Of a DNA stretch of 43,562 nucleotides, positions 30,860 through 43,562 are shown one piece after another. Position numbers and translations under genes: made by a program. The stretch is from positions 1-43,562 of the forward strand of contig CAMHMN010000016.1 of NCBI GenBank assembly GCA_946186245.1, read 5' to 3'. This DNA is from an uncultured Clostridia bacterium (GTDB lineage Bacteria; Bacillota; Clostridia; Oscillospirales; Acutalibacteraceae). The notes below the pieces were generated by a model, which did no database searches, was not told where the DNA came from, and saw only the letters and a list, made by a program, of their open reading frames with translations. The number at the start of each line of letters is the position of its first letter. The stretch's first letter is position 1.

Positions 30860-31189
30860 TTATCGCTTGGAAGCCGGCGCGCGTGTGGTCGTGGTGGTCG
30901 TGGTGGTCGTGGCATAGGTGGTGGAAGTGGTGGAACTGTCTGTCATACCGTCGTCCATATCATCCAGACCGCGGCGGATGCCGTCGGCGCCTCTTTCGAT
31001 GGCGTCGCCTGTGTCGTCGATCAGCTGACCGGCGCCGTTAAGGGCATTGCGGCCGTTGGAGCCGTCGTAAATGCCGTTCTGATTCATACCGTCAGAAGTT
31101 GCTCCGTTGCGTGTCGATCCGCAGCTCACGGGGAGAACCATGAGCGACAGAGCGGCAGCAGCGCACATAATGCGGAATTTCCTGTTCAT
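30860..31189 (-). CDS. Small Thr-rich putative lipoprotein
   Basis: A 109-residue protein with a signal sequence and lipobox LPVSC (lipid cysteine C23). The mature part is hydrophilic with an Asp/Gly-rich middle and a C-terminal run of nine threonines followed by RAPASKR, encoded by a near-repeat of ACC/ACG codons. No family is recognised. The ribosome binding site is weak (GGGACGG). It is convergent with ilvE and lies 204 bp downstream of the polysaccharide cluster on the same strand. Confidence 0.7.
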   Translation of the reverse strand: MNRKFRIMCAAAALSLMVLPVSCGSTRNGATSDGMNQNGIYDGSNGRNALNGAGQLIDDTGDAIERGADGIRRGLDDMDDGMTDSSTTSTTYATTTTTTTTTRAPASKR

Positions 31190-31392: not shown

Positions 31393-32169
31393 TTACGTCA
31401 GGTCCAGATCTTCGGTGATGTCCTTGTGTCCCTTTTTGATGAGATAGAACTGCATGACCACCACCAGAATATTCAGCGTGACGGTGAGCATATACTCGAT
31501 ATTCTTCCGCAGACCGCTGTGCATGCTCTCGCCTGTCAGACGCTCGTGCATGACCGAAGGCACTTCGCGCATCCAATAGCCGTTGAGCAGCATCTTGGTG
31601 ATGATGTTGGCGTCGGGGTAATTCGTGTCGAAGTTGTCGTAGAGGGAATACGCCGTGAACGCGCGTCGGCTGAGTCCCTGCAAACCGGAAGTCGGATCGG
31701 TAAAATGCTTGCGCGTCACCAGCCGGATCGCCATGTTGAAAAAGCCGATCGCCACCTTCTTGGCCAGTCCCACCTTCATGCTGCTGTGGCGTTCTCCGAT
31801 GAATCGGGAACCGATGACGATATCATACGGGTGCTTCCCGTGTGTCAGCTTGTCGTAGATGGTGCCGATATTGCAGACGTCGTGCTGACCGTCCGCATCC
31901 ATCTGAATGATGAATTCGTAGTCGTGATCGACGGCGTACTTGTAGCCGGTCTGAAGCGATACGCCATAGCCCATATTGAAAATATGCGAAACCACGATCG
32001 CTCCGGCCTTCTCCGCAACCTCGACGGTGTGATCCCTCGATCCGTCGTTGATAACCAGAATGTCGACGTCGCCGCATTCCGCCTTGATATTGTGAATGAC
32101 GCCTGCAATACTGCCCTCTTCGTTGAAGGCCGGTATCAGTATCAGCGTTTTTCTGTCGAGGCATATCAT
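31393..32169 (-). CDS. Family 2 glycosyltransferase, polyprenyl-phosphate sugar synthase-like
   Basis: A 258-residue GT2 of the dolichol-phosphate mannose synthase type. The N-terminus LILIPAFNEEGSI, NDGSRDHT, the metal-binding MDADGQHD (D91, D93) and GSRFIGERH are typical, and it ends in one hydrophobic segment (about 222-246). Such enzymes load a sugar from a nucleotide donor onto a polyprenyl phosphate for GT-C transferases acting outside the membrane. GGAGG precedes the ATG. It is the last gene of the cluster, 40 bp after the GT4 gene. The sugar is unknown. Confidence 0.87.
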   Translation of the reverse strand: MICLDRKTLILIPAFNEEGSIAGVIHNIKAECGDVDILVINDGSRDHTVEVAEKAGAIVVSHIFNMGYGVSLQTGYKYAVDHDYEFIIQMDADGQHDVCNIGTIYDKLTHGKHPYDIVIGSRFIGERHSSMKVGLAKKVAIGFFNMAIRLVTRKHFTDPTSGLQGLSRRAFTAYSLYDNFDTNYPDANIITKMLLNGYWMREVPSVMHERLTGESMHSGLRKNIEYMLTVTLNILVVVMQFYLIKKGHKDITEDLDLT

Positions 32170-32209
32170 GAAATGCCCACCTCCGGGTGATTATTGGGTT
32201 GCTTGATGA

Positions 32210-33430
32210 TTAATCCGTCAATGCGTAAAGCATTTCGAGATCCTTTTTGAAATCCAGCGCAATGCCGCTGAGATTCCGGGTGAATTTTGCCCTGCGTTCG
32301 GGCGATGTGATCAGCTTTTCCATGCCTTCCACAATATTTTCCACCGAAAGATCGATCAGCACGCCTGTTTCGCCGTCGGTCACCTGTTCCTCATTGCCCG
32401 CGCATCTGGAAGCCAGCACAGGCCGCGCCAGCACCAGCGATTCGGCAAGGGCAATGCACCAGCCCTCAAAGCGTGAAGCCTGGGAATAAATGTCGCATTC
32501 CGCGATGAACGGGTAGGGATTCGGCGTGGTTCCCAGCAGAATGAAGCTGTCCTCGACGCCGTTCTGCCTGATCAGGGCGCGGAGATTGTCTTCCTCGGCT
32601 CCCTCCCCGATGACGTACCAGCGTACATTATGCCCTCTGCGGCGAAGCTCGGCGAGCGCCGGGATCGCAAGGTCGTAAGCCTTCTGATAATGCAGTCTGC
32701 CGACGGTGAGAATCCGCAGGCCGTCAAATCCGTCGGTGAAGCCTTCGCCTTCCTTGGACAGCCTGATGATCCGTTCTCTCGGCACCATATTGTGGAAGAA
32801 GAAGGTCTTCCCGCCGTATTCGGGATAGGCCTGCAGAAAGACCTTCCGCACGGTGTCCGACACGCAGAAAACGCGGTCGAACTTGTCGTAGTATTTTTTG
32901 TCCAGCTTGGGAGAATATCCCGCCGCCAGATAATCAATGTGGACATAGGTCGCTTTTTTCTTCGCCTTGACGTAATTGGCGACGTAGTAGGTGGCGGCGC
33001 CTTCGATAAAAGCGACGGCGAGATCGTATTCCTCGTCAAAGCGCCTGGCATTCCTCGCCAGCAGCATCCAGAAGAGCTTGCTGAAATCGAGGCGCTTTAT
33101 CCTGATCTGATGAAACAGCACGCGGAAGAAATAGGGCATATAAGTAAGGAAGCTGCATTTTTTTACAAGGCTCCAGAGTATCTGCCGTCCGATGGCGGCA
33201 AGTCCGGCGCTGTCCAGCACCGATTTTGTGCAGGGATTTTGGTTGAGGATATGCACATAGGCCGGCATATCGCTGTAAAGCTCGCCCCGGTTGATGATGG
33301 AATAGACCGAAAGGTCGTATTTCTCCGGGTCAAGCAGCTCCAGCAGCGCCTGAAGGCATTTTTCCGCGCCGGCGCGTCCCATTGTGTTGGTGACAAAGAG
33401 TATCTTCTTCTTTGAAGCCATTTCCCCCAT
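32210..33430 (-). CDS. Family 4 (GT-B) glycosyltransferase
   Basis: A 406-residue GT-B enzyme. The N-terminal domain begins KKILFVTNTMGRAGAEKCL. The C-terminal donor-binding domain has LRILTVGRLHYQKAYDLAI, WYVIGEGAEEDNLR and the E-x7-E type SRFEGWCIALAESLVLARPV, so it is a retaining GT4. It should transfer a sugar from a nucleotide donor at the cytoplasmic face. It does not look like PelF, whose N-terminus differs. AGGAAAGGG precedes the ATG at 33430. Gene spacing is 18 bp after the upstream GT2. Confidence 0.88.
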   Translation of the reverse strand: MGEMASKKKILFVTNTMGRAGAEKCLQALLELLDPEKYDLSVYSIINRGELYSDMPAYVHILNQNPCTKSVLDSAGLAAIGRQILWSLVKKCSFLTYMPYFFRVLFHQIRIKRLDFSKLFWMLLARNARRFDEEYDLAVAFIEGAATYYVANYVKAKKKATYVHIDYLAAGYSPKLDKKYYDKFDRVFCVSDTVRKVFLQAYPEYGGKTFFFHNMVPRERIIRLSKEGEGFTDGFDGLRILTVGRLHYQKAYDLAIPALAELRRRGHNVRWYVIGEGAEEDNLRALIRQNGVEDSFILLGTTPNPYPFIAECDIYSQASRFEGWCIALAESLVLARPVLASRCAGNEEQVTDGETGVLIDLSVENIVEGMEKLITSPERRAKFTRNLSGIALDFKKDLEMLYALTD

Positions 33431-33448
33431 ATGCTTTCACCCTTTCCT

Positions 33449-34456
33449 CTATATAAATTTTCTCACCGTTCTGACCGCCAGCCTGAACACGCCGAATCCC
33501 ATGGTGAAGAAAACGGCGCTCATGCGGTAGCTCAGCGGTATGCGGCTCATTTTCATGTATTTTTTCCGGAGCGGCTTGAATTCGGCGTAGTACTCCCTGA
33601 AAAGCTGCCTGTCATAGGGGCCGTATTCCGCCATCACGTCCGAAACCCACAGAATGGTCGTGCCAAGCAGTCCGTTGCCCGCGTCGGCAAGCTGCGGGGA
33701 TTCGCCCGCCAGCTCGTCGCGGATTTCCCGGGCGGTTTCCACCATTTTGCGGTGCTCCTCGCCGAAGCTGCGGTGCATTGCGCTCTGACCGCGCTGGATG
33801 TAGTGGTATGTCCTGTGCTGTGTGACGGTCATCTTTTCCACCCGCCGGAACACTTCGTAGTTGAAGCGCAGATCCTCGAGAATCCTGATGTCCCCGCGGA
33901 ACCGCACGCCCTCCAGCAATTCCCGGCGGTAGAGCTTATTCCACACATAACCGCCGACAGCGCCGCCGGCGAGTAATTCGCAGACGGCGCTGTCATGGTC
34001 AAAATCACAGCATACTTCATTCGCAGCATCGTTTGAATCAGAGCATGAATGCGTCAGCTGTCCGGAGACGTTTTTCTCGTCCTCGCTGATGAAGCCGCAG
34101 GCAGCCACATCGCAGTCATGCTGCCTGATCAGCCTCAGCAGACCTTCAATATGTCCGGAATCCACATAGTCATCCGCGTCGGCAAACGTGATAAATTCGC
34201 CCTTTGCCGCCTCGATTCCAGCGTTGCGGGCGGAAGACACGCCGCCGTTTGCCTTATGCACCACGGCAATGCGGCTGTCGGATTGCGCCAGCCTGTCGCA
34301 GATTTCGGAAGTCCGGTCGGTAGAACCGTCGTCCACCAGAATAATCTCCAGGCTGCGGACTGTCTGGGCGGTAAGAGAATTCACGCATCTCGGCAAATAA
34401 TCCCCGCAGTTGTAGACGGGAATGATGATACTAACGGTATCCATTTTATTCTCCAT
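33449..34456 (-). CDS. Family 2 glycosyltransferase
   Basis: A 335-residue GT2 of the common inverting type found in capsule and EPS loci. Motifs are VSIIIPVYNCGDYL, VDDGSTDRT, the NGGVSSARNAG loop and the metal-binding FADADDYVD (D93, D95). The C-terminal ~30 residues are hydrophobic/amphipathic and may touch the membrane. AAGGAG lies eight bases before the ATG. It follows the 804-residue membrane protein by 23 bp. Confidence 0.9.
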   Translation of the reverse strand: MENKMDTVSIIIPVYNCGDYLPRCVNSLTAQTVRSLEIILVDDGSTDRTSEICDRLAQSDSRIAVVHKANGGVSSARNAGIEAAKGEFITFADADDYVDSGHIEGLLRLIRQHDCDVAACGFISEDEKNVSGQLTHSCSDSNDAANEVCCDFDHDSAVCELLAGGAVGGYVWNKLYRRELLEGVRFRGDIRILEDLRFNYEVFRRVEKMTVTQHRTYHYIQRGQSAMHRSFGEEHRKMVETAREIRDELAGESPQLADAGNGLLGTTILWVSDVMAEYGPYDRQLFREYYAEFKPLRKKYMKMSRIPLSYRMSAVFFTMGFGVFRLAVRTVRKFI

Positions 34457-34479: not shown

Positions 34480-36894
34480 TTACGGCGTCGCGGTGGCATT
34501 GCCTGCCGATTCAGCGGATTCAGTTTCCGTTGAGGTCAGGTCGCTGTCCGAAACGGTGGGAGTGGTCTGTCCCAGCGCATCGGGATGCTCTATGAGCCAC
34601 TGCTCCATCGTGATGTTATTGTAACCGTAATCAATGGCGAAATTATTGAGGGCGTACATATTCTGCTTGACCTCATAGATAATGACATCCATGTCCTCAT
34701 AATAAATGCTCATCTGATCCGGGAAGTACGACATGTACTTCTCCGCCCAGAAATAGGCCTTGGACATGATGGCATGCCGGTTTTCATAAATGCCGTAGTA
34801 GTCGCTCTTTTTCTTTGTACGGACGGTCTGCTCTGTGAGCAGCTGATTGGCGGCGTCCTTGGAGATTCTCGGATAAAGCGTTTCCGGCTCTCCCATATAG
34901 GTCGTGTCAGCGTATCTCAGCGGACGCTTTTCAATCACAAAGTAGACATATTCTGTCGGAATCTGAATAACTCTGGTGGGATCGTACTGTTCCATACGGA
35001 AAACGAATTCCCAAAGCTCGTAGTGCCAGCCCTTGTTTCTGGTCAGCGCAAGCTCGTCAACCGTTGACACGATGGTCCATGTGTCCTTGCGGTGCGTTGC
35101 CTTGATTCTGTAGTAATTCTCCGTGACGGATGAATAGGACAGCCTGAAATAGGCGCTTGTATTATACGTGGAGCCGGCAAATACGATGACGAACGCAGCC
35201 GCCAGCATAATGGCAACGGAACCGACCCAGCGCACCGGCTTGAATCGCTCCTCGAAGATGATCCAGAAAAGACCGAACGGAACGCCGATCATGATGGCGC
35301 CGAGATAAACGAGGTAGACGGGGGAACGGTCGCCTGTAATCAGCGCAGGCAATCCGAAGGTGCCGGGATTCATGATGATATAGTTGAAAAGCACCATATT
35401 CAGCCCCAGGCCGATCGCCACTTTTCCCTGTTTCCTCTTGGATGTGGCAAACAGCACCACTGCGCCCAGCACGATGGCAATCGCCGAACAGACGTAAATC
35501 ACATAGCCCCAGTAATCCGTGACGCTCTTCATGGTGAACTTGAAGGAATTAACGGATTTCTCGATGAAATTGGGACCTTCTTCCCCGTCTTCCGCCTTGC
35601 TTTCGTTCTGCTTTTGCTTTTCGACGCCTTCAGCGCCTTCCTCTTCGGAAGAAGCGCTGCCTTTTTCCATCATGCTGACAGCCCAGTCAAGGGAGCCCTG
35701 CCAGTGATAGCCCAGCGACAGACCCGCAAACATCGGGCCGATGCTGATGATGGCGGCCAGAATCACGCTCAGCACCATCTTGACAAAGACCTTTTTCTGG
35801 AACAGCACCGGAATATAGGGCAGAACCAGACAAAAACAGAGAGGTACCGAGAAAAACGCGTTGTAAAAGTGGGCCGAAACCGTCATGGACGCGGCAAAGG
35901 CAAAGGCAATGCCGTCGATATTCCTCTGATCCTCCAGGAACTTCACCATGAAGTAGCCTGTGGGGATGATGAACATCATGCCGTATTCCTGAGGAAGCGA
36001 GAAGAACACACGGTCAATGACCGCGCCGGTGCCTAAGCTGCTCAGGCAGTAAATCATACCTGTCACAACAGAAGCCGCCGGGCTCTTGAAGATCCTGGAA
36101 ATGACCGCCATCAGCACAATGCCCATAAACATCGCGTTGAGAGGGCCGATGAATCTCATGACCGTCACCACGTCGATAAATGTGATCTTGGAAAACGCGG
36201 AAACGATATTGTGCATGGCAAAGGGATAGATGCCGTCGCTGAAAATGAAGTCAGCGTCCAGGAAGTTGATCCATGATGTGTGAACCGAAACGTCCGAGGT
36301 CGGGAATGCCTGACTGGTCATGGCAAAATAACCGCGGCGAATCATCAGAACCAGTATGCAGATCGTTCCGACCACGTGATAGGCGACATTTTTGTCAAAA
36401 TACCACCTGCCGAATCTTTTCAGTCCGTGAGAGATGTTGGCGATTTTTTCACTGAAGTAATCGCGCACCATCAGCGGGAATTTCAGCTGTCCGCTCAGAA
36501 TGTCGGACAGCGTAAACACAAAATCATTCGCCTTTTGACGGAAACTGATTCTGTTTTTGAATTTCACATAGAACAGAATGATGAATATGATGGATAGCCC
36601 CAGGGTAAGCCTGCTATAGATTTTCATAAAGCCCAGGACGTACACGATCGAGGCAAGCGTCACCTGACTGATGATGATGCTGATCATGGCATTGTCCAGG
36701 AATTCACCCTCGCAGAGCTTCAGCTTGAGTACCTTGGCCGGGATGATGATAAAGATGATCGCATATGCCACCACAAACCATATAAACGACCAAATGTTGT
36801 TCATTACCTTCTGGTCAAAGAAGCCCTCCATCATCATATTGGAGATAAATGGAAGATTGGACAGATTGGCTAGTGCGTCCGATAATGATAACAT
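34480..36894 (-). CDS. Large polytopic membrane protein, GT-C glycosyltransferase-like
   Basis: An 804-residue protein with about 12 TM helices (from residue 33 to 575) and a soluble C-terminal domain of ~230 residues. Between TM helices lies SDVSVHTSWINFLDADF (D201, H205) and GIYPFAMHNI (H228), resembling the acidic first loop and YPxxxH pattern of GT-C-like polyprenyl-sugar-dependent transferases. An acidic, Lys/Glu-rich loop spans about 410-445. A Ser/Thr-rich tail ends the protein. The GT-C call is inference; it could instead be a polymerase or ligase of the cluster. GGAGGG precedes the ATG by six bases. It sits 39 bp after the PelE-like gene. Confidence 0.7.
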   Translation of the reverse strand: MLSLSDALANLSNLPFISNMMMEGFFDQKVMNNIWSFIWFVVAYAIIFIIIPAKVLKLKLCEGEFLDNAMISIIISQVTLASIVYVLGFMKIYSRLTLGLSIIFIILFYVKFKNRISFRQKANDFVFTLSDILSGQLKFPLMVRDYFSEKIANISHGLKRFGRWYFDKNVAYHVVGTICILVLMIRRGYFAMTSQAFPTSDVSVHTSWINFLDADFIFSDGIYPFAMHNIVSAFSKITFIDVVTVMRFIGPLNAMFMGIVLMAVISRIFKSPAASVVTGMIYCLSSLGTGAVIDRVFFSLPQEYGMMFIIPTGYFMVKFLEDQRNIDGIAFAFAASMTVSAHFYNAFFSVPLCFCLVLPYIPVLFQKKVFVKMVLSVILAAIISIGPMFAGLSLGYHWQGSLDWAVSMMEKGSASSEEEGAEGVEKQKQNESKAEDGEEGPNFIEKSVNSFKFTMKSVTDYWGYVIYVCSAIAIVLGAVVLFATSKRKQGKVAIGLGLNMVLFNYIIMNPGTFGLPALITGDRSPVYLVYLGAIMIGVPFGLFWIIFEERFKPVRWVGSVAIMLAAAFVIVFAGSTYNTSAYFRLSYSSVTENYYRIKATHRKDTWTIVSTVDELALTRNKGWHYELWEFVFRMEQYDPTRVIQIPTEYVYFVIEKRPLRYADTTYMGEPETLYPRISKDAANQLLTEQTVRTKKKSDYYGIYENRHAIMSKAYFWAEKYMSYFPDQMSIYYEDMDVIIYEVKQNMYALNNFAIDYGYNNITMEQWLIEHPDALGQTTPTVSDSDLTSTETESAESAGNATATP

Positions 36895-36933: not shown

Positions 36934-37893
36934 TTACTTGCGGTTCCAGAAACGAACGACGCCTATGCCCTTCTGTGAAAGCTGCGCGCCGGATTTGAGC
37001 ATTTTGTCGAGAACGATCTTGAAATCTTCCCACTGCTCGGTCTTATACTTGACGTTGAGCGCGTTGAGATAGGACTGCTCCATATTTGGCTGGCGCTCGA
37101 TGGAGAGATTGGCCCATCTGTCGGCGTCGTCGTATTTGCCTATGTTGATCAGGCATTCCACCACGTTTTTGTAATGCTCGGTATCAAGCAGATCGGGATG
37201 GAAGGTGTTGAGATTGTCGATCAGATCCACATAAAGATGGGAGTACTTCTTGACCTCTATCTCACCCAGAACGCCGCTGCTGATATACTCAAAGGTCGTA
37301 TCGGCATATTCTCTGTTGATGTCGGCGTCCTGCGGGTTCTCCTGATATTTCTGCTGGAGTCCCGCGAGCTTCTTGGAATATTTCTGCAGGATATCCATGA
37401 GAGCCGCCGCAGCGTAGTGGGCGGTTTCAGGGTCCTCGTTGTCCAGCGCCTTGACCAGAGACTTCATGTTGTTGGAAACGTCGGCTTTCAGCACGTTGAG
37501 CAACGCCCGGCGCTTATCCTGGACATCCGAAATGATAAGCGCTTCCTCGAGCGGAACGAATTCCTTTTCGGTCTCGTAGTCGGTCTGCTTGGCAAATTCT
37601 TTCTTTTCCTTGCTGAATGTCAGTTCCAGGTAGTCGATGTCCGACTTGCGGTCAAACAAAGATACGATGAAATTGACAAAGAAGCATATGACGCCGAAAG
37701 GAGGTGTCAAAAGCATGACCAGAGACTTGCAGATAGCGGGTCGGAACTTGCCCAGCAGAGTGAAGACGATCAGATATGCCACCACCACCACGGTGTTGAC
37801 AAAGATTATCTGGAAGATGAAGTTGGGATCTCTGGCGTTGAGCGTGAAATGAAATCCGTTGATTATGCGTTCAAGGTTAATTCCTGTATTCAT
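36934..37893 (-). CDS. pelE: PelE-like membrane protein with helical repeats
   Basis: A 319-residue protein with two TM helices (about 25-47 and 56-80) followed by a cytoplasmic, all-helical region. The region includes VPLEEALIISDVQDKRRALL, ETAHYAAAALMDIL and TPR-like helices to the C-terminus. Two TM helices plus TPR is the layout of PelE, the partner of PelD in Pel export. The start overlaps the last 17 bp of the PelD-like gene, so the pair is translationally coupled, as expected for interacting subunits. The name rests on architecture and position, not on a database match. Confidence 0.72.
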   Translation of the reverse strand: MNTGINLERIINGFHFTLNARDPNFIFQIIFVNTVVVVAYLIVFTLLGKFRPAICKSLVMLLTPPFGVICFFVNFIVSLFDRKSDIDYLELTFSKEKKEFAKQTDYETEKEFVPLEEALIISDVQDKRRALLNVLKADVSNNMKSLVKALDNEDPETAHYAAAALMDILQKYSKKLAGLQQKYQENPQDADINREYADTTFEYISSGVLGEIEVKKYSHLYVDLIDNLNTFHPDLLDTEHYKNVVECLINIGKYDDADRWANLSIERQPNMEQSYLNALNVKYKTEQWEDFKIVLDKMLKSGAQLSQKGIGVVRFWNRK

Positions 37894-40102
37894 CTAATGA
37901 CACCACCTCTGCCTCCAAATCAATGCGGGCGATCTTTTTGTAAACAAAGGGCAGATCCTTCTCGGTTGTATTGTTAAGCAGCATAAGCAGCTCGTTGGGA
38001 TCCTTCTCGCTCAGACCGACATAGTCGTTGTCGCGGAGAATACCGCCGAGAGCGGCTCCCTTTTCCATAAGCTGCGAGCTGTCTTCCACCCTTGTACGCA
38101 GCACGGCGAAATCGGCGATATTGTGGCCGGTGCCGTCCAGCTTGGTCTTGACGATATCGGTAAACGCGCTGGCAAGCAGTACGTTTGAACCGGGTACATA
38201 ACGGGTATCCTTGGTATCGCTCTGATAGCGGTAGGCCTTCTCGAAGCTGGAAGCGATGATCTTGGAAAGAACAGAGAAGAGGTTTTCCTGATAGAGCGTC
38301 ATCTTGTCGAAATCCATGTTGAACAGCATGATCATATAAATCATGTTCTGCTCGGAGAAAACAGGCGCGACCATGGAAGGCAGATTGGGATCGAGCTTGC
38401 GGTTGACAAAAATTCTCTCCTCAAGCAGCACGCCTTCGAGCTGTTCGTAATCTTCGAGATTGATGATGTTGCGCATCTTCTGGGCGCGTCTGGAAGAAGC
38501 ACCCGACAGACGGTACAGACCCTCGTTGCTCTTGACATAAATCGCCACATCCTGCACGCCCATGATCTGAATGATAACGTCCAGAGCCGAATTGACGATC
38601 TTTTCGGAATCCAGCAGGTCGAGCTGTGATACGATGGAGTACACCTTTGCGATGGAGTTGTCGTAGTTGATCAGACGCTCTTCGAACATCTTCTTGATCT
38701 GGATGTGTCTCTCGGAGATGTCGTAGATTCTGGCGAGCTCCTCCTGCAGGGCGGCTTTTTCTTCGGTCAGCTCGGTGTTTCTCAGCTTGAGTCTGTCCTT
38801 GCTGTAGCCGACCAGAATACCGACCAGGAAGAAGAAGAGGATCTTGATCAGCGTCCCGTAATCCAGTACGACCTCGGAGAATTCCATACCGGAAATCATC
38901 TTCATGACGACATACATGATGGACGACAGGAAGATCGAGATGTAGGAATGGGTGACGCTGTAAACGACCGACATGATGATGATGTAAATGACAAAGAAGT
39001 CGAGCGACTTGAGCATGGTCAGGTCGTTGGCAAAATAAGTGCCGAGACAGGCAATGGCGCAGAGCGCAAGACTTTCGACATAGGCCAGCAGACCCTTGCC
39101 TATTTCCTTCATGCGCTTCTTGCTTTCATTCCATGCCGCGCTGTCGCCGCGCTTCTTCTTGGCGGCGTAATTCTCCTGCAGTGTGCCGAGGTTGCTGGTG
39201 ACCCACTTGTAGTTGCGTTCCATGCCCTTTTCGAGGGTGACGATCGGATTGTATCCGGTTGCCTTCTGGAAGAGGGTGCCGACGGGGTTACAGGTGCAGC
39301 CCTTGCCTGCCGACTTGGTATCCACGACGTTGATCTTGGAACCGCTGATCTTCTCCGCCATCTCTATGAGGTTTCTGTTGGAAACATACTCGTTGCCTTC
39401 GACATTGTAGGTGCCGTTGGGGATGGAGGTGTTGGCAATGGCTCTGTAGGTCGCGTCCACCGCGTCGCCGATGAAGATGGTCTTGTATTCCATGTCGAGG
39501 TCGCACTCGAAGGGAACGCCCATCTTGCCAAAGAGGAAGCAGTTGCTGACGAAATTGAGCTTCTCGTCGGTGTTGGCCTGCGGGCCGTAGACCATAGGCA
39601 GACGGAGAATGACCGACTTCAGACCGGTGTTGTCGTTATAGATCTTGCACTGACCCTCGCCGTTGAGCAGGGTAAGTCCTCTGATGGAAGAAGGTGCGGG
39701 CTTGTTCTTCTCGGTGACCGGCGTCTCGTAATCCGTGCCGTAAACGTCTGTGGAGGACAGATAAATCATATGTCTGACGCCGGCGTTGCTGGCGCAGGTC
39801 AGCACATTGGAGATGGCTGCGTTGAAGACAGCCGCGTCGGAGTTGCTGTTCCACGAGAAAGCGTTGTCCTGAGAGCCGATGAATACCATGGCGTCCGGAC
39901 CGATAGAGTCGATGATGTTCTGGATCAGCGGATCGTCCAGCGCAAAATCGTAGTTGATGTGTCTGGGCAGACCTCTGCCCTTCAATTTGGTATTTTTTCC
40001 TGTTATCATATAGATTTCGCAGCCTTCCTTGGCAAGACGCTGCACCAATGAATTGGTAAAGAAACCATATGAACCTACAATCAAAACTTTAATTGTACCC
40101 AC
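37877..40102 (-). CDS. pelD: SDR/epimerase-like domain fused to a PelD-like c-di-GMP receptor
   Basis: A 741-residue fusion. Residues 1-310 resemble an NAD-dependent epimerase (IYLSSTDVYG 113-122, LRLPMVYGP), but the glycine motif reads GSYGFFT (10-16) and the YxxxK dyad is missing (R141, L145 by alignment to the following Glu). Residues 338-433 hold four TM helices, then a coiled coil (440-475), a GAF domain (about 478-625) and a GGDEF-like domain. There R690-D-N-D693 forms an intact RxxD inhibitory site while the GGDEF site is replaced by DPNEL. TM-GAF-degenerate GGDEF is PelD, which activates Pel synthesis on binding c-di-GMP. The GTG start has AAGGAAGG upstream. A fused epimerase-like domain is unusual. 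Confidence 0.82.
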   Translation of the reverse strand: MGTIKVLIVGSYGFFTNSLVQRLAKEGCEIYMITGKNTKLKGRGLPRHINYDFALDDPLIQNIIDSIGPDAMVFIGSQDNAFSWNSNSDAAVFNAAISNVLTCASNAGVRHMIYLSSTDVYGTDYETPVTEKNKPAPSSIRGLTLLNGEGQCKIYNDNTGLKSVILRLPMVYGPQANTDEKLNFVSNCFLFGKMGVPFECDLDMEYKTIFIGDAVDATYRAIANTSIPNGTYNVEGNEYVSNRNLIEMAEKISGSKINVVDTKSAGKGCTCNPVGTLFQKATGYNPIVTLEKGMERNYKWVTSNLGTLQENYAAKKKRGDSAAWNESKKRMKEIGKGLLAYVESLALCAIACLGTYFANDLTMLKSLDFFVIYIIIMSVVYSVTHSYISIFLSSIMYVVMKMISGMEFSEVVLDYGTLIKILFFFLVGILVGYSKDRLKLRNTELTEEKAALQEELARIYDISERHIQIKKMFEERLINYDNSIAKVYSIVSQLDLLDSEKIVNSALDVIIQIMGVQDVAIYVKSNEGLYRLSGASSRRAQKMRNIINLEDYEQLEGVLLEERIFVNRKLDPNLPSMVAPVFSEQNMIYMIMLFNMDFDKMTLYQENLFSVLSKIIASSFEKAYRYQSDTKDTRYVPGSNVLLASAFTDIVKTKLDGTGHNIADFAVLRTRVEDSSQLMEKGAALGGILRDNDYVGLSEKDPNELLMLLNNTTEKDLPFVYKKIARIDLEAEVVSLDEYRN

Positions 40103-40258: not shown

Positions 40259-41185
40259 CTATTTGCCCGGTCGCTGCACATGAAGGATCATGCAAACCAC
40301 CGTCAGCACATATCCGCACACCGCCACAACCGGACGGAACGGACAGAGCAGCCTGTACCCCAGGGGGGCAAATTCCCGGTAGACCTCCTGGTATTCAAAG
40401 CAGTACTTGTTGCGGTAGTGAATGCTCCAGGGCTTGACCGGACCCATGAAGTGCACAATGATGGGATTTTCGCGCCGCCTGTACTTCTTGCTAAGCCCCC
40501 ATTTCACCACCTCGTTGGCAAGCAGTCCGGGGTTGTAATTGTACAGGTTTTTCCAGATCTTTATGCTGTCCTGAAAATAGATGTTGATCGCATCCTGGTC
40601 GGGATAGATGAGATCCTTTTTCTTTGCCTCGATGATCTCGAATATGCTGTTTACGTCGAAGCCCTTTTCCCGCATCAATTTCAGATTCATCAGCAGCACG
40701 CCGCTGTTGATGTACCGGCTGCCCTCCGGCATGCCCAGCCGGATGTAATGGGGGCGGTTGTCGGGACATTTCGGATCGTTCATCTGGGGCGGATCGGCCA
40801 TCGCAATCAGCATGTTCCCGTCGAAGGGCAGATGGTAGAATTCCTCCACCGAACCCCTGATCAGAATGTCGGGGTCCATGTAGAGCACACGCTCTTCGCT
40901 CTCGGGAAGCATCCGGCTTGCCAGCAGCCGGTAATACATTTCCTTGGTGAAGTGCATATTGACCGGCGCGTCGTCGAACATGTCGTCCGCAACCCTGAGC
41001 GGCTCGAAGCGGTTGCCCGCCGACTCGATGTTGGCTCTCATTTTTTCCAGCGTGGGGTCGTCGATTCTGGAATACATGAGATAAACCGTGACAGGGCATT
41101 TGTTGTGCTTAAAAAGGGACTTGAGCATGGTCAGAGAATACCTGCAGTAATTCTGTGACACCGTGATCAGAACATTCAACCTCAT
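40259..41185 (-). CDS. Family 8 glycosyltransferase (second of two)
   Basis: A 308-residue GT8 retaining transferase. Motifs are NVLITVSQNYCRYSLTML, KEMYYRLLASRMLP, the metal-binding YMDPDILI (D104, D106), YINSGVLLMNL, YPDQDAINIYF and HFMGPVKPW. A C-terminal hydrophobic segment (about 280-300) probably anchors it. GT8 enzymes use UDP-Gal, UDP-Glc or related donors; which is unknown here. Its ATG overlaps the stop of the preceding GT8 (ATGA). The 156-bp gap to the PelD-like gene shows no promoter I can support. Confidence 0.9.
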   Translation of the reverse strand: MRLNVLITVSQNYCRYSLTMLKSLFKHNKCPVTVYLMYSRIDDPTLEKMRANIESAGNRFEPLRVADDMFDDAPVNMHFTKEMYYRLLASRMLPESEERVLYMDPDILIRGSVEEFYHLPFDGNMLIAMADPPQMNDPKCPDNRPHYIRLGMPEGSRYINSGVLLMNLKLMREKGFDVNSIFEIIEAKKKDLIYPDQDAINIYFQDSIKIWKNLYNYNPGLLANEVVKWGLSKKYRRRENPIIVHFMGPVKPWSIHYRNKYCFEYQEVYREFAPLGYRLLCPFRPVVAVCGYVLTVVCMILHVQRPGK

Positions 41186-42096
41186 CCCTCCTTAAATATG
41201 ACTCTCCACGCCGCCGCGACAAGCGAATGGAAGACCAGCCACGGTCTGCGCCGCAGCTCACGCTTTTCGTCCGGCGTGAGATATGGATTCAGATAGGATC
41301 TGTATTTGCGGTAGTATTTATAGTAGTAAGACGGCTTCCACGGCTTGCATTTGCCCATGTAGTGCGCAATGACCACCCGCTCCCGCTCTGAACGCCTGTA
41401 ACGGGGACTGAAAATGTATTGCAGGAAATCGCCCGTTCCCACGTATTCGGTGGTGAAATTGTACTCGCGGGGAGCGTATTGGATGCTGTCCTTGAAGTAG
41501 ACGTTGATCAGATCCTGATCGGGGAATTCCAGCGTCAGCCCGCATTCGCCCATGAACCGGAACAGTTCGTCGAGCTGAAAGCGCTCCTTCATCAGCGGAA
41601 TGTTGAAAAGGATCACGCCGGAATTGATGTATCTGTAGTTCTCCCCCAGTCCCAGATTCTTCTTGCGCTCCGGATAATAGCTGTCGCCGAGGTAATCCGG
41701 CACCGCGATCATCTGCCTGCCTTCAAAATCCGAAGCGTAGAATTCCCTGATCGACCGGAAAATGATGATGTCCGGGTCGAGGTAGAGCGCTCTTTCTTCC
41801 TCCGGCAGAAGCTGGGGAATCAGCAGACGGTAGTACATTTCCTTTGTAAAATACTTTGTCACCGTCGCGCCGTCGAACAGCTCCGGCGGCACCGGAATGT
41901 CGGTAAATTCGCCGCCGTATTTCGCAATGTGGTCGGAAAGCCGTCTGAGATTTTCCTTGCATACGTTGGAGTGCAGCAGATAAACATGAATTCCTGCGCC
42001 GTTGTGCTCAAAAAGCGATTCCAGCATGATCAGCGCCGGTCGAATGTAGTTGTCGTCCACTGTAATGACGACATTCATCTCGCTTGTCATCGCCAT
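41182..42096 (-). CDS. Family 8 glycosyltransferase (first of two)
   Basis: A 304-residue GT8 closely similar to its downstream neighbour: MNVVITVDDNYIRPALIML, KEMYYRLLIPQLLP, YLDPDIII (D107, D109), YINSGVILFNIPL, FPDQDLINVYF and HYMGKCKPW. The two look like a tandem duplication that has diverged. The ATG at 42094-42096 follows AAGGAGG by 12 bases; an in-frame TTG at 42144 has no site, and the ATG at 42078 is also possible. It lies 165 bp after the PelG-like gene. Confidence 0.9.
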   Translation of the reverse strand: MAMTSEMNVVITVDDNYIRPALIMLESLFEHNGAGIHVYLLHSNVCKENLRRLSDHIAKYGGEFTDIPVPPELFDGATVTKYFTKEMYYRLLIPQLLPEEERALYLDPDIIIFRSIREFYASDFEGRQMIAVPDYLGDSYYPERKKNLGLGENYRYINSGVILFNIPLMKERFQLDELFRFMGECGLTLEFPDQDLINVYFKDSIQYAPREYNFTTEYVGTGDFLQYIFSPRYRRSERERVVIAHYMGKCKPWKPSYYYKYYRKYRSYLNPYLTPDEKRELRRRPWLVFHSLVAAAWRVIFKEG

Positions 42097-42261
42097 GTCC
42101 AGCCGCTGCCTCCTTATCGTCATGGTTTTTATGCGGATTGTCAAACTGTCAAGCGCTGTAAATCGTGGAAAGGAAGTTTTTTCTCCGGTCGGAGCAAAGG
42201 ATGGCTTTGATTAACGCCGGATCTGTTGCGCCCTTCCCGTTTTCAATCACCTTGCAGTTGT

Positions 42262-43562
42262 TTATTTCTTTGCCTTTGCGGCAATTTCCTTCATCTGGGC
42301 TTCGCGTTCCGCTTTCTGCTGAGCGAACATCTTCTGCTTCTGCTGCTCTGCCTCTTCCTTTACCTTGTCTTCCTTGGTGTGCTTGAGGTTGGCAAGCATT
42401 TCGTCGGCTTCGTCGATGCGTCTCTTGGTCATCTTGCCGGCGGAAGTGGTGTTGACGATCATGCCGCGGCAGAAAATCTGCTCGTCGATCTTGTTGATCA
42501 CCCTGCGCAGGCGCAAGTAGCCGATGGTCCAGCCGATGAATGCACCCAAGAACAGGCCGAGACCCGCGAAAACGACGTCGAAGTAGGTGGTGATGATGGA
42601 TCCGATCAGCGTACCCAGGAAGAAGCCTATGGTCACCATGCAGGTGCCTATGCCGTCATCAAAGTAGAAGAGGAAGATGACTTCGCAGTACATGATGAAG
42701 GTGACAAAGTAGGCAGCCGCCAGCGCCGGATAGATGGAGAGGATAACGCCTTCAAATCCGAAGTCGGGCAGGAAGATCATCGCCAGTATGAAGAGAATGA
42801 TGGTGATGATGAACTGGAAGCGGATAATGTAGAAGAGCTCGCTCTTGAGCGTGCGGAACATGTTCTTCTTGGCAAGCTCGATATCCTCGCCGCCGCCGCC
42901 GTTGACCGTCTCAAGATAGGCCTGGTAAGAGCCGAAGAAGGAAGTCTCGGCCTTGACGACGAATATAACCAGTGTGGAAATATTGGTGAAAAGGGCAAGA
43001 CATGTCGCCATATCGTAATCAGGCGCCGTCCAGAACACGTTGCCGATATAGGCGCTGCGGTCGGTGGTCCAGTAGACGAAATTGTGGACGTAAAGTCCGA
43101 ATGTGTAAAAGAAGTTGGTGATAAACAGCGGCTTGAATCGCAGGAAGTACTTCAGCGCCTCGGTGTAATTCTTGCTCGACACCTTGAAGTAGGTCTTCAG
43201 GTTGGCGTAGAGCATGGTGGAGATGATGGAGAAGCAAAGCACCATGGAGCCGAGAATCGCGTAGGAAACCGCGTTGTGGAATACATACACGCTGACAATG
43301 GCGAATACCAGCGCGGCGAGTATTCCCAGGAAGTAAGCCATACCGATCTTGCCGTAGTCCTTCAGAGCCGAAACATAGGTCATCAGGTAGAGCGACATAT
43401 TGATGACCATGAAGAACCAGTAGGACAGGAACGTGAAGAAGGGGTCGATGCCGACTTCGATCTCTCTGAATACGATGTAGAGCGAAGCGAGGAAGGCAAG
43501 CACCATGTTGAGTGCCAGACCGACATTGATAGCCGGCATGATGTCGGTTATCTGCTCCTGAT
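42262..43562 (-). CDS. pelG: PelG-like exopolysaccharide exporter (N-terminus outside window)
   Basis: About 433 residues are visible and the frame is open through the window edge (QEQITDI precedes the first ATG), so the true start lies beyond. It is a polytopic MOP-type transporter with roughly ten TM helices here. The segment LFITNFFYTFGLYVHNFVYW, then TAPDYDMATCLALFTNISTL and KAETSFFGSYQAYLETV, matches the pattern of PelG, which moves Pel polymer across the membrane with PelD, PelE and PelF. The last ~75 residues form a charged, Lys/Glu/Gln-rich coiled-coil tail not expected in PelG. PelF would be expected upstream, outside the window. Confidence 0.82.
   Translation of the reverse strand, partial: QEQITDIMPAINVGLALNMVLAFLASLYIVFREIEVGIDPFFTFLSYWFFMVINMSLYLMTYVSALKDYGKIGMAYFLGILAALVFAIVSVYVFHNAVSYAILGSMVLCFSIISTMLYANLKTYFKVSSKNYTEALKYFLRFKPLFITNFFYTFGLYVHNFVYWTTDRSAYIGNVFWTAPDYDMATCLALFTNISTLVIFVVKAETSFFGSYQAYLETVNGGGGEDIELAKKNMFRTLKSELFYIIRFQFIITIILFILAMIFLPDFGFEGVILSIYPALAAAYFVTFIMYCEVIFLFYFDDGIGTCMVTIGFFLGTLIGSIITTYFDVVFAGLGLFLGAFIGWTIGYLRLRRVINKIDEQIFCRGMIVNTTSAGKMTKRRIDEADEMLANLKHTKEDKVKEEAEQQKQKMFAQQKAEREAQMKEIAAKAKK

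Follow-up and report, generated by a model that had tools for sequence, protein, structure and literature searches.

PelD proteins extended at the N terminus by a short-chain dehydrogenase/reductase (SDR) domain are already known. In the passages of Whitfield et al. 2020 (PMC7112168) drawn on here, the PelD of Brevibacillus carries an apparently active SDR domain, whereas all other extended PelDs found in that study, from streptococci, clostridia, and actinobacteria, have altered cofactor and catalytic residues and are considered likely inactive; S2 Fig of that paper gives residues for some PelDs and may already document such residue details. According to the part of Raju et al. 2025 (PMC12345266) used here, which cites Whitfield and Howell 2021 for the definition of the PelD classes, what the degenerate SDR domain does is unknown. 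We analyzed a 43,562-nucleotide stretch of an uncultured Clostridia genome (contig CAMHMN010000016.1 of assembly GCA_946186245.1; hereafter the window) that encodes a PelD-like protein of this kind. A first-pass annotation of the window had presented the fusion of an epimerase domain to PelD as new; because such fusions were published in 2020 (PMC7112168, as far as drawn on here), the window protein is a further example of the degenerate-SDR PelD kind and not a new kind. Our preferred reading, to which we give a probability of roughly 55%, is that it is a synthase receptor gated by cyclic diguanylate (c-di-GMP) in which the SDR domain acts as a non-enzymatic adapter rather than as a ligand sensor.

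Architecture and the putative c-di-GMP receptor module

The gene and its two folded parts are as follows.
37877-40102, minus strand: pelD-like gene, a single open reading frame of 741 amino acids with a GTG start
39188-40102, minus strand: SDR/epimerase-fold domain, residues 1-305, predicted to be non-catalytic (PF01370, Foldseek, VIA-align; catalytic residues replaced)
37880-38659, minus strand: GAF plus degenerate GGDEF module, residues 482-741, with RxxD (R690, D693) and K723

The frame joining an SDR-like domain to a PelD module is thus present as the first-pass annotation described it, and a purine-rich stretch resembling a ribosome-binding site lies immediately 5' of the GTG start. The protein comprises the SDR domain (residues ~1-305), a linker, a transmembrane region (~341-440, where helices are predicted ahead of the GAF domain), a coil, the GAF domain (~486-630), and a degenerate GGDEF domain (~631-741). 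The Pfam family Epimerase (PF01370) matches residues 6-234 with an E value of 2.3e-20, and the top Foldseek and VIA-align matches of the SDR part are SDR nucleotide-sugar enzymes, mostly UDP-sugar epimerases; by all three methods, the domain has the extended-SDR fold of a UDP-sugar 4-epimerase. VIA-align was run with the full-length model and is informative for the SDR part alone. Further, in a profile search of the PDB with a 22-row alignment, all of the matches listed (60 of 190) fell inside the SDR part.

When the predicted model of residues 482-741 was searched with Foldseek, eight of the nine best matches were chains of Pseudomonas aeruginosa PelD (E values of 6e-9 to 5e-7). The whole-length TM-scores against PelD were low (0.41-0.43), presumably reflecting a different placement of the two domains in the model. 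These matches support the assignment of the C-terminal module as a PelD-type receptor. Of the full transmembrane-GAF-GGDEF-like module that had been annotated, the PelD-like C terminus stands, with the qualification that its GGDEF domain is a short, degenerate one in which Lys takes the place of Arg at one of the three c-di-GMP contacts. The RxxD motif of the I-site (R690 and D693) is invariant in 30 of 30 aligned rows. Of the 29 rows that extend to the third contact, which corresponds to Arg402 in P. aeruginosa and Arg395 in Bacillus cereus, 26 have Arg there, and the three from the window's genus have Lys (K723 in the window, 37934-37936). According to the passages of PMC7112168 used here, B. 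cereus PelD with Arg395 replaced by Ala shows no detectable c-di-GMP binding. K723 raises the question of whether the window's genus still reads c-di-GMP. As the window's own genome holds six GGDEF matches above the cut-off, it likely has a source of the signal. The PelD_GGDEF family (PF16963) has no match in this genome, nor in any control genome, and is hence uninformative.

Loss and possible reuse of the former active site

The SDR domain has GSYGFFT at residues 10-16 and retains SST and VYG blocks. In the alignment with free epimerases described below, the third Gly of the GxxGxxG motif is replaced by T16, the NAD-binding Asp by T34, and the catalytic Tyr and Lys by R141 and L145, respectively; alignment to solved epimerases, including a pairwise alignment to PDB 6wjb, concurs on R141 and L145. 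The earlier view that the domain has GSYGFFT in place of the motif, lacks the YxxxK dyad, and is probably not an active epimerase is borne out by these replacements. Further, an Arg conserved in 34 of 34 free epimerases, presumably a diphosphate contact, is Y206 in the window.

To place these losses in the family, we aligned 42 PelD SDR rows with 34 free epimerases. Four of the 42 were the same sequence fetched twice, and counts are given for the 38 distinct rows, many of which are close kin. The free epimerases were found with a profile built for this analysis and retained if GxxGxxG occurred close to the beginning of the frame (34 of 37 for the residue alignments, 32 of 37 for the SDR tree), so their glycine motif is true by construction and is no evidence; their Tyr and Lys were not selected for. 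Of the 38 PelD rows, L068 alone has the catalytic Lys, compared with 34 of 34 free epimerases; the catalytic Tyr is found in two of the 38 (L068 and L073) and in 33 of 34 free epimerases. As a yardstick of retention, we used the 43 columns conserved to at least 85% among the free enzymes, which themselves keep a median of 42 (minimum 25); L068 keeps 38, the window 23, and the remaining PelD rows 7 to 25. The whole active site is retained in the PelD L068, which comes from a different class of the phylum. L073 looks like an intermediate: it still has the glycine motif along with the Asp and Tyr, but its Lys and Ser are gone. Judged by its residues, the SDR domain of the window is a pseudo-enzyme.

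The domain is nevertheless under purifying selection in the window's genus: among 14 genus sequences, the median ratio of nonsynonymous to synonymous substitution rates (dN/dS) is 0.091 for residues 1-305, compared with 0.087 for the GGDEF part and 0.041 for the GAF domain. The replacements are also shared. In the window's clade (17 distinct rows), residue 141 is basic in 17, residue 93 is aromatic in 17, and D79 and W84 are each present in 16; the 10 rows from outside the genus give 10, 10, 9, and 9, respectively. Positions 84 and 93 are Ser and Asn in free epimerases, so that S84 to W and N93 to F/Y put bulky residues in place of small ones. In the same clade, S116/S117, Y172, and P174 are mostly retained, and the residues lost from PelD SDR domains differ between clades. 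Because D79, W84, aromatic 93, and basic 141 are held in common, this pattern suggests that the former active site was reused rather than left to decay. Positions 79, 84, 93, and 141 are, we assume from what is known of the family, lining the cleft, and we read the replacements as a probable rebuilding of it. The pattern offers a concrete place, the former active site, in which to look for the role of the domain.

The receptor-with-adapter reading would run as follows. An ancestral active epimerase resembling GalE or PelX would have been fused in front of PelD and would later have lost NAD binding and catalysis while being kept under selection. c-di-GMP would bind the I-site of the degenerate GGDEF domain (R690-x-x-D693, with K723) and, when bound, activate the PelD-E-F-G synthase, as in Pseudomonas and Bacillus. 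The SDR domain, probably on the cytoplasmic face, would have no enzymatic role and would act as an adapter, its rebuilt cleft offering a docking site for a partner, with PelF or PelE the most plausible. The SDR protein MAT2B, a regulatory subunit, is a precedent for a non-enzymatic role and is found among the solved-structure matches.

An alternative, possible but on balance doubtful, is that the SDR domain is a ligand sensor, which would bind some metabolite, such as a nucleotide or sugar nucleotide, but leave it unconverted and so tune PelD output. The non-random, clade-wide replacements, above all the basic residue 141, would suit a binding pocket, as would the Ser pair, Tyr, and Pro that are mostly kept. 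Against this, the third Gly, the NAD-binding Asp, and Arg206 are gone, bulky side chains occupy positions 84 and 93, and the residues lost differ by clade, so one common ligand is unlikely. Sensing of NAD or a UDP-sugar, as the first-pass annotation proposed, fits poorly with these losses; the domain may have a different ligand or a protein partner.

That the domain is a relic decaying by drift we consider improbable. The branches of the SDR tree are long and many PelD rows keep few of the 43 columns, as drift would have it, but a dN/dS of 0.09, near that of the GGDEF part, and an uninterrupted frame in 14 of 17 same-genus genomes speak against decay, and on the dN/dS value we disfavor it. It is more improbable still that the domain remains an enzyme with altered chemistry or a displaced Tyr/Lys pair: the Ser pair and overall fold are kept and a neighboring Tyr or Lys could in principle serve, but cofactor and catalytic residues are both gone, and the genome has a separate, strong GalE elsewhere (437 bits, above the cut-off).

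Spread and origin of the fusion

The window protein was searched against 118 genomes. All 17 same-genus genomes gave a match, which was an uninterrupted frame in 14 (in one of them, a contig end cuts off the first 6 residues) and pieces at contig ends only in three (41 residues in G015). Records at 80-94% identity come from uncultured Clostridia, Clostridiales, Ruminococcus, and Bacillota genomes, some from goat gut, and largely repeat the same-genus set; those with RUG numbers are, we presume, rumen genomes. The same layout occurs at ~25-28% identity in Acutalibacter, Pseudoflavonifractor, and other Oscillospiraceae records, and the SDR-PelD layout also occurs in other families of the order and phylum. 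The fusion thus recurs in other Clostridia, where the first-pass annotation had suggested looking for it, and the two separate genes joined by a sequencing error that it had allowed for are not what 14 of the 17 same-genus genomes show. An assembly or sequencing artefact, for which one could cite an in-frame TAA in the fragmentary match of one same-genus genome (G004), has a negligible probability and is rejected, given the single frame seen in 14 of the 17 genomes of the genus and in genomes of other families.

We note two irregular matches. In G004 (G004:C308:2-1666, L023), the TAA lies inside a fragmentary pelD match, and in G674:C37 (L074), the pelD match occupies two frames (536 and 248 amino acids); each is either a true break or an assembly error. 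The alignments exclude L074 and the fragments L023, L024, and L028, and the genus has few representatives in the C-terminal and SDR alignments and trees.

The 30-row tree of the C-terminal module groups the three PelDs that lack an SDR domain in one clade, so a single fusion is enough to account for the 27 that bear one. In the SDR tree (59 rows), the 32 free epimerases split from the 27 PelD domains with support of 87/89, and L068 is nearest to the free ones (93/87). The C-terminal tree instead makes L068, at modest support (82/78), the neighbor of a degenerate group of 12 rows. As the two trees conflict over L068 and long branches were flagged, we limit our claim to a minimum of one loss; counting how often catalysis was lost independently was given up for the same reasons. 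Read cautiously, the epimerase was captured once, and catalysis was lost one or more times thereafter. The suggestion that an ancestral active epimerase was captured is supported by the whole active site kept by the distant relative L068.

Three relatives in two families (G040, G1033, and G273) carry an HD-GYP domain (HD_5; motif HHE..DGTGYP) in one frame before the degenerate SDR-PelD, a fusion absent from the window's own protein. In G034, G946, and G1007, a separate HD_5 gene, whose GYP motif lacks the final Pro, adjoins the SDR-pelD gene on its upstream side.
L129:1501-4314: HD-GYP-SDR-PelD frame, 938 amino acids stop to stop
L130:303-3122: HD-GYP-SDR-PelD frame, 940 amino acids stop to stop
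L135:1501-4329: HD-GYP-SDR-PelD frame, 943 amino acids stop to stop
L131:163-1995: separate gene with C-terminal HD_5, apparently a membrane protein
L132:2-1504: separate gene with C-terminal HD_5, apparently a membrane protein
L133:3561-4898: separate gene with C-terminal HD_5, apparently a membrane protein

A search by name of open-licence papers found no PelD-HD-GYP fusion. These arrangements suggest a tie between a phosphodiesterase and the PelD receptor; if the tie is true, the fusions would directly exemplify local control of c-di-GMP at a synthase for a polysaccharide. Speculatively, and with the odds against the picture as a whole, a dead epimerase may have been rebuilt as a second regulatory input of PelD, its active site reused clade-wide (D79, W84, aromatic 93, and basic 141) and catalysis disappearing, perhaps repeatedly, among the descendants of a single fused ancestor, with another branch adding a canonical-looking HD-GYP domain in front and so tying a signal-destroying enzyme to the receptor.

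The pel locus and comparison with described systems

The pelD-like gene lies in a pel locus with the following further features.
42262-43562, minus strand: pelG-like gene, truncated where the contig ends (PF16933, E 9e-80, profile positions 102-452)
41182-42144, minus strand: glycosyltransferase family 8 (GT8) gene between pelG and pelD (PF01501, E 5.6e-34), at a position shared by those genus loci that extend to it
40259-41185, minus strand: second GT8 gene (PF01501, E 2.9e-34), likewise at a shared position in those genus loci that extend to it
36934-37893, minus strand: pelE-like gene, 319 amino acids, adjoining pelD, with homologues in other pel loci and weak, sub-cut-off tetratricopeptide repeat matches
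34480-36894, minus strand: 804-amino-acid hydrophobic, apparently polytopic protein with no Pfam match and homologues 3' of pel in some other Oscillospiraceae
31393-34456, minus strand: GT2, GT4, and GT2 glycosyltransferase genes downstream of pel (Pfam and locus comparison)

The pelE-like gene overlaps the end of pelD by 17 nucleotides, and the pelF of this genome is on another contig (C78). All 11 genus loci that have sufficient flanking sequence share one order: PelA-like (DUF2194), PelF, PelG, GT8, GT8, PelD, PelE, the 804-residue-type protein, GT2, GT4, and GT2; from its position, we take the DUF2194 gene to fill the slot of the deacetylase-like PelA. An extra epimerase-family gene among the downstream glycosyltransferase genes (L104:18066-19160) is the lone exception. 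Outside the genus, the order is D-E-A-F-G in 11 of 11 loci with a complete cluster, and no GT8 homologue was found in those loci as far as they reach, some less than 2 kb upstream of pelD. On a 5.6-kb contig (L118), a homologue of the 804-residue protein directly follows pelE, as in the window, and the reordering of pel may thus not be confined to the window's genus. Homologues of this protein also lie 3' of pel in L112-L116 and L120, there accompanied by GT4 and GT2 genes. The GT2 at 31393-32169 resembles polyprenyl-phosphate sugar synthases, and it and the 804-residue protein could form a GT-C-type pair. The two GT8 enzymes may decorate the polymer with a side group or supply it with a second sugar.

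At 30860-31189 on the minus strand is a 109-amino-acid lipoprotein-like reading frame with, by eye, an N-terminal signal with Cys, and a Thr-rich tract at its end. Within the window, no known RNA family was detected at the gathering threshold; promoter and terminator scans gave 15 and 15 hits versus shuffle means of 9.8 and 11.6 and were not used.

As for novelty, the replacement pattern, the third-contact Lys, the GT8 genes, and the HD-GYP fusions are absent from the passages of PMC7112168 and PMC12345266 drawn on, with only HD-GYP searched for by name; GT8 occurs 0 times in the main text of PMC7112168, the only literature search made for the GT8 genes.

Compared with solved structures, residues 1-305 share the fold of the Pseudomonas protegens UDP-GlcNAc C4-epimerase (PDB 6wj9 and 6wjb; Foldseek ranks 4 and 7), which differs in being a separate, active enzyme whose Tyr and Lys correspond to R141 and L145. 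We take these two entries to be PelX. The C-terminal model finds its best structural match in P. aeruginosa PelD (PDB 4dn0, 4dmz, and 4etz), which likewise has a GAF domain and a degenerate GGDEF domain with RxxD but shows 12-14% identity over the aligned region and, according to the part of PMC7112168 used here, has no SDR domain. Brevibacillus PelD, as described there, shares the SDR-transmembrane-GAF-GGDEF layout and differs in its intact active-site residues; L068, with 38 of the 43 conserved columns versus 23 in the window, is a case of this kind. The degenerate-SDR PelDs of the same source are alike in having an N-terminal epimerase domain with altered cofactor and catalytic residues, followed by transmembrane and GAF regions, in a pel cluster. 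The window protein keeps a GGDEF domain with RxxD, whereas the streptococcal forms lack GGDEF, and it departs from the published degenerate-SDR PelDs, as far as they are described in those passages, in the Lys at the third contact and in the order A-F-G-GT8-GT8-D-E instead of D-E-A-F-G.
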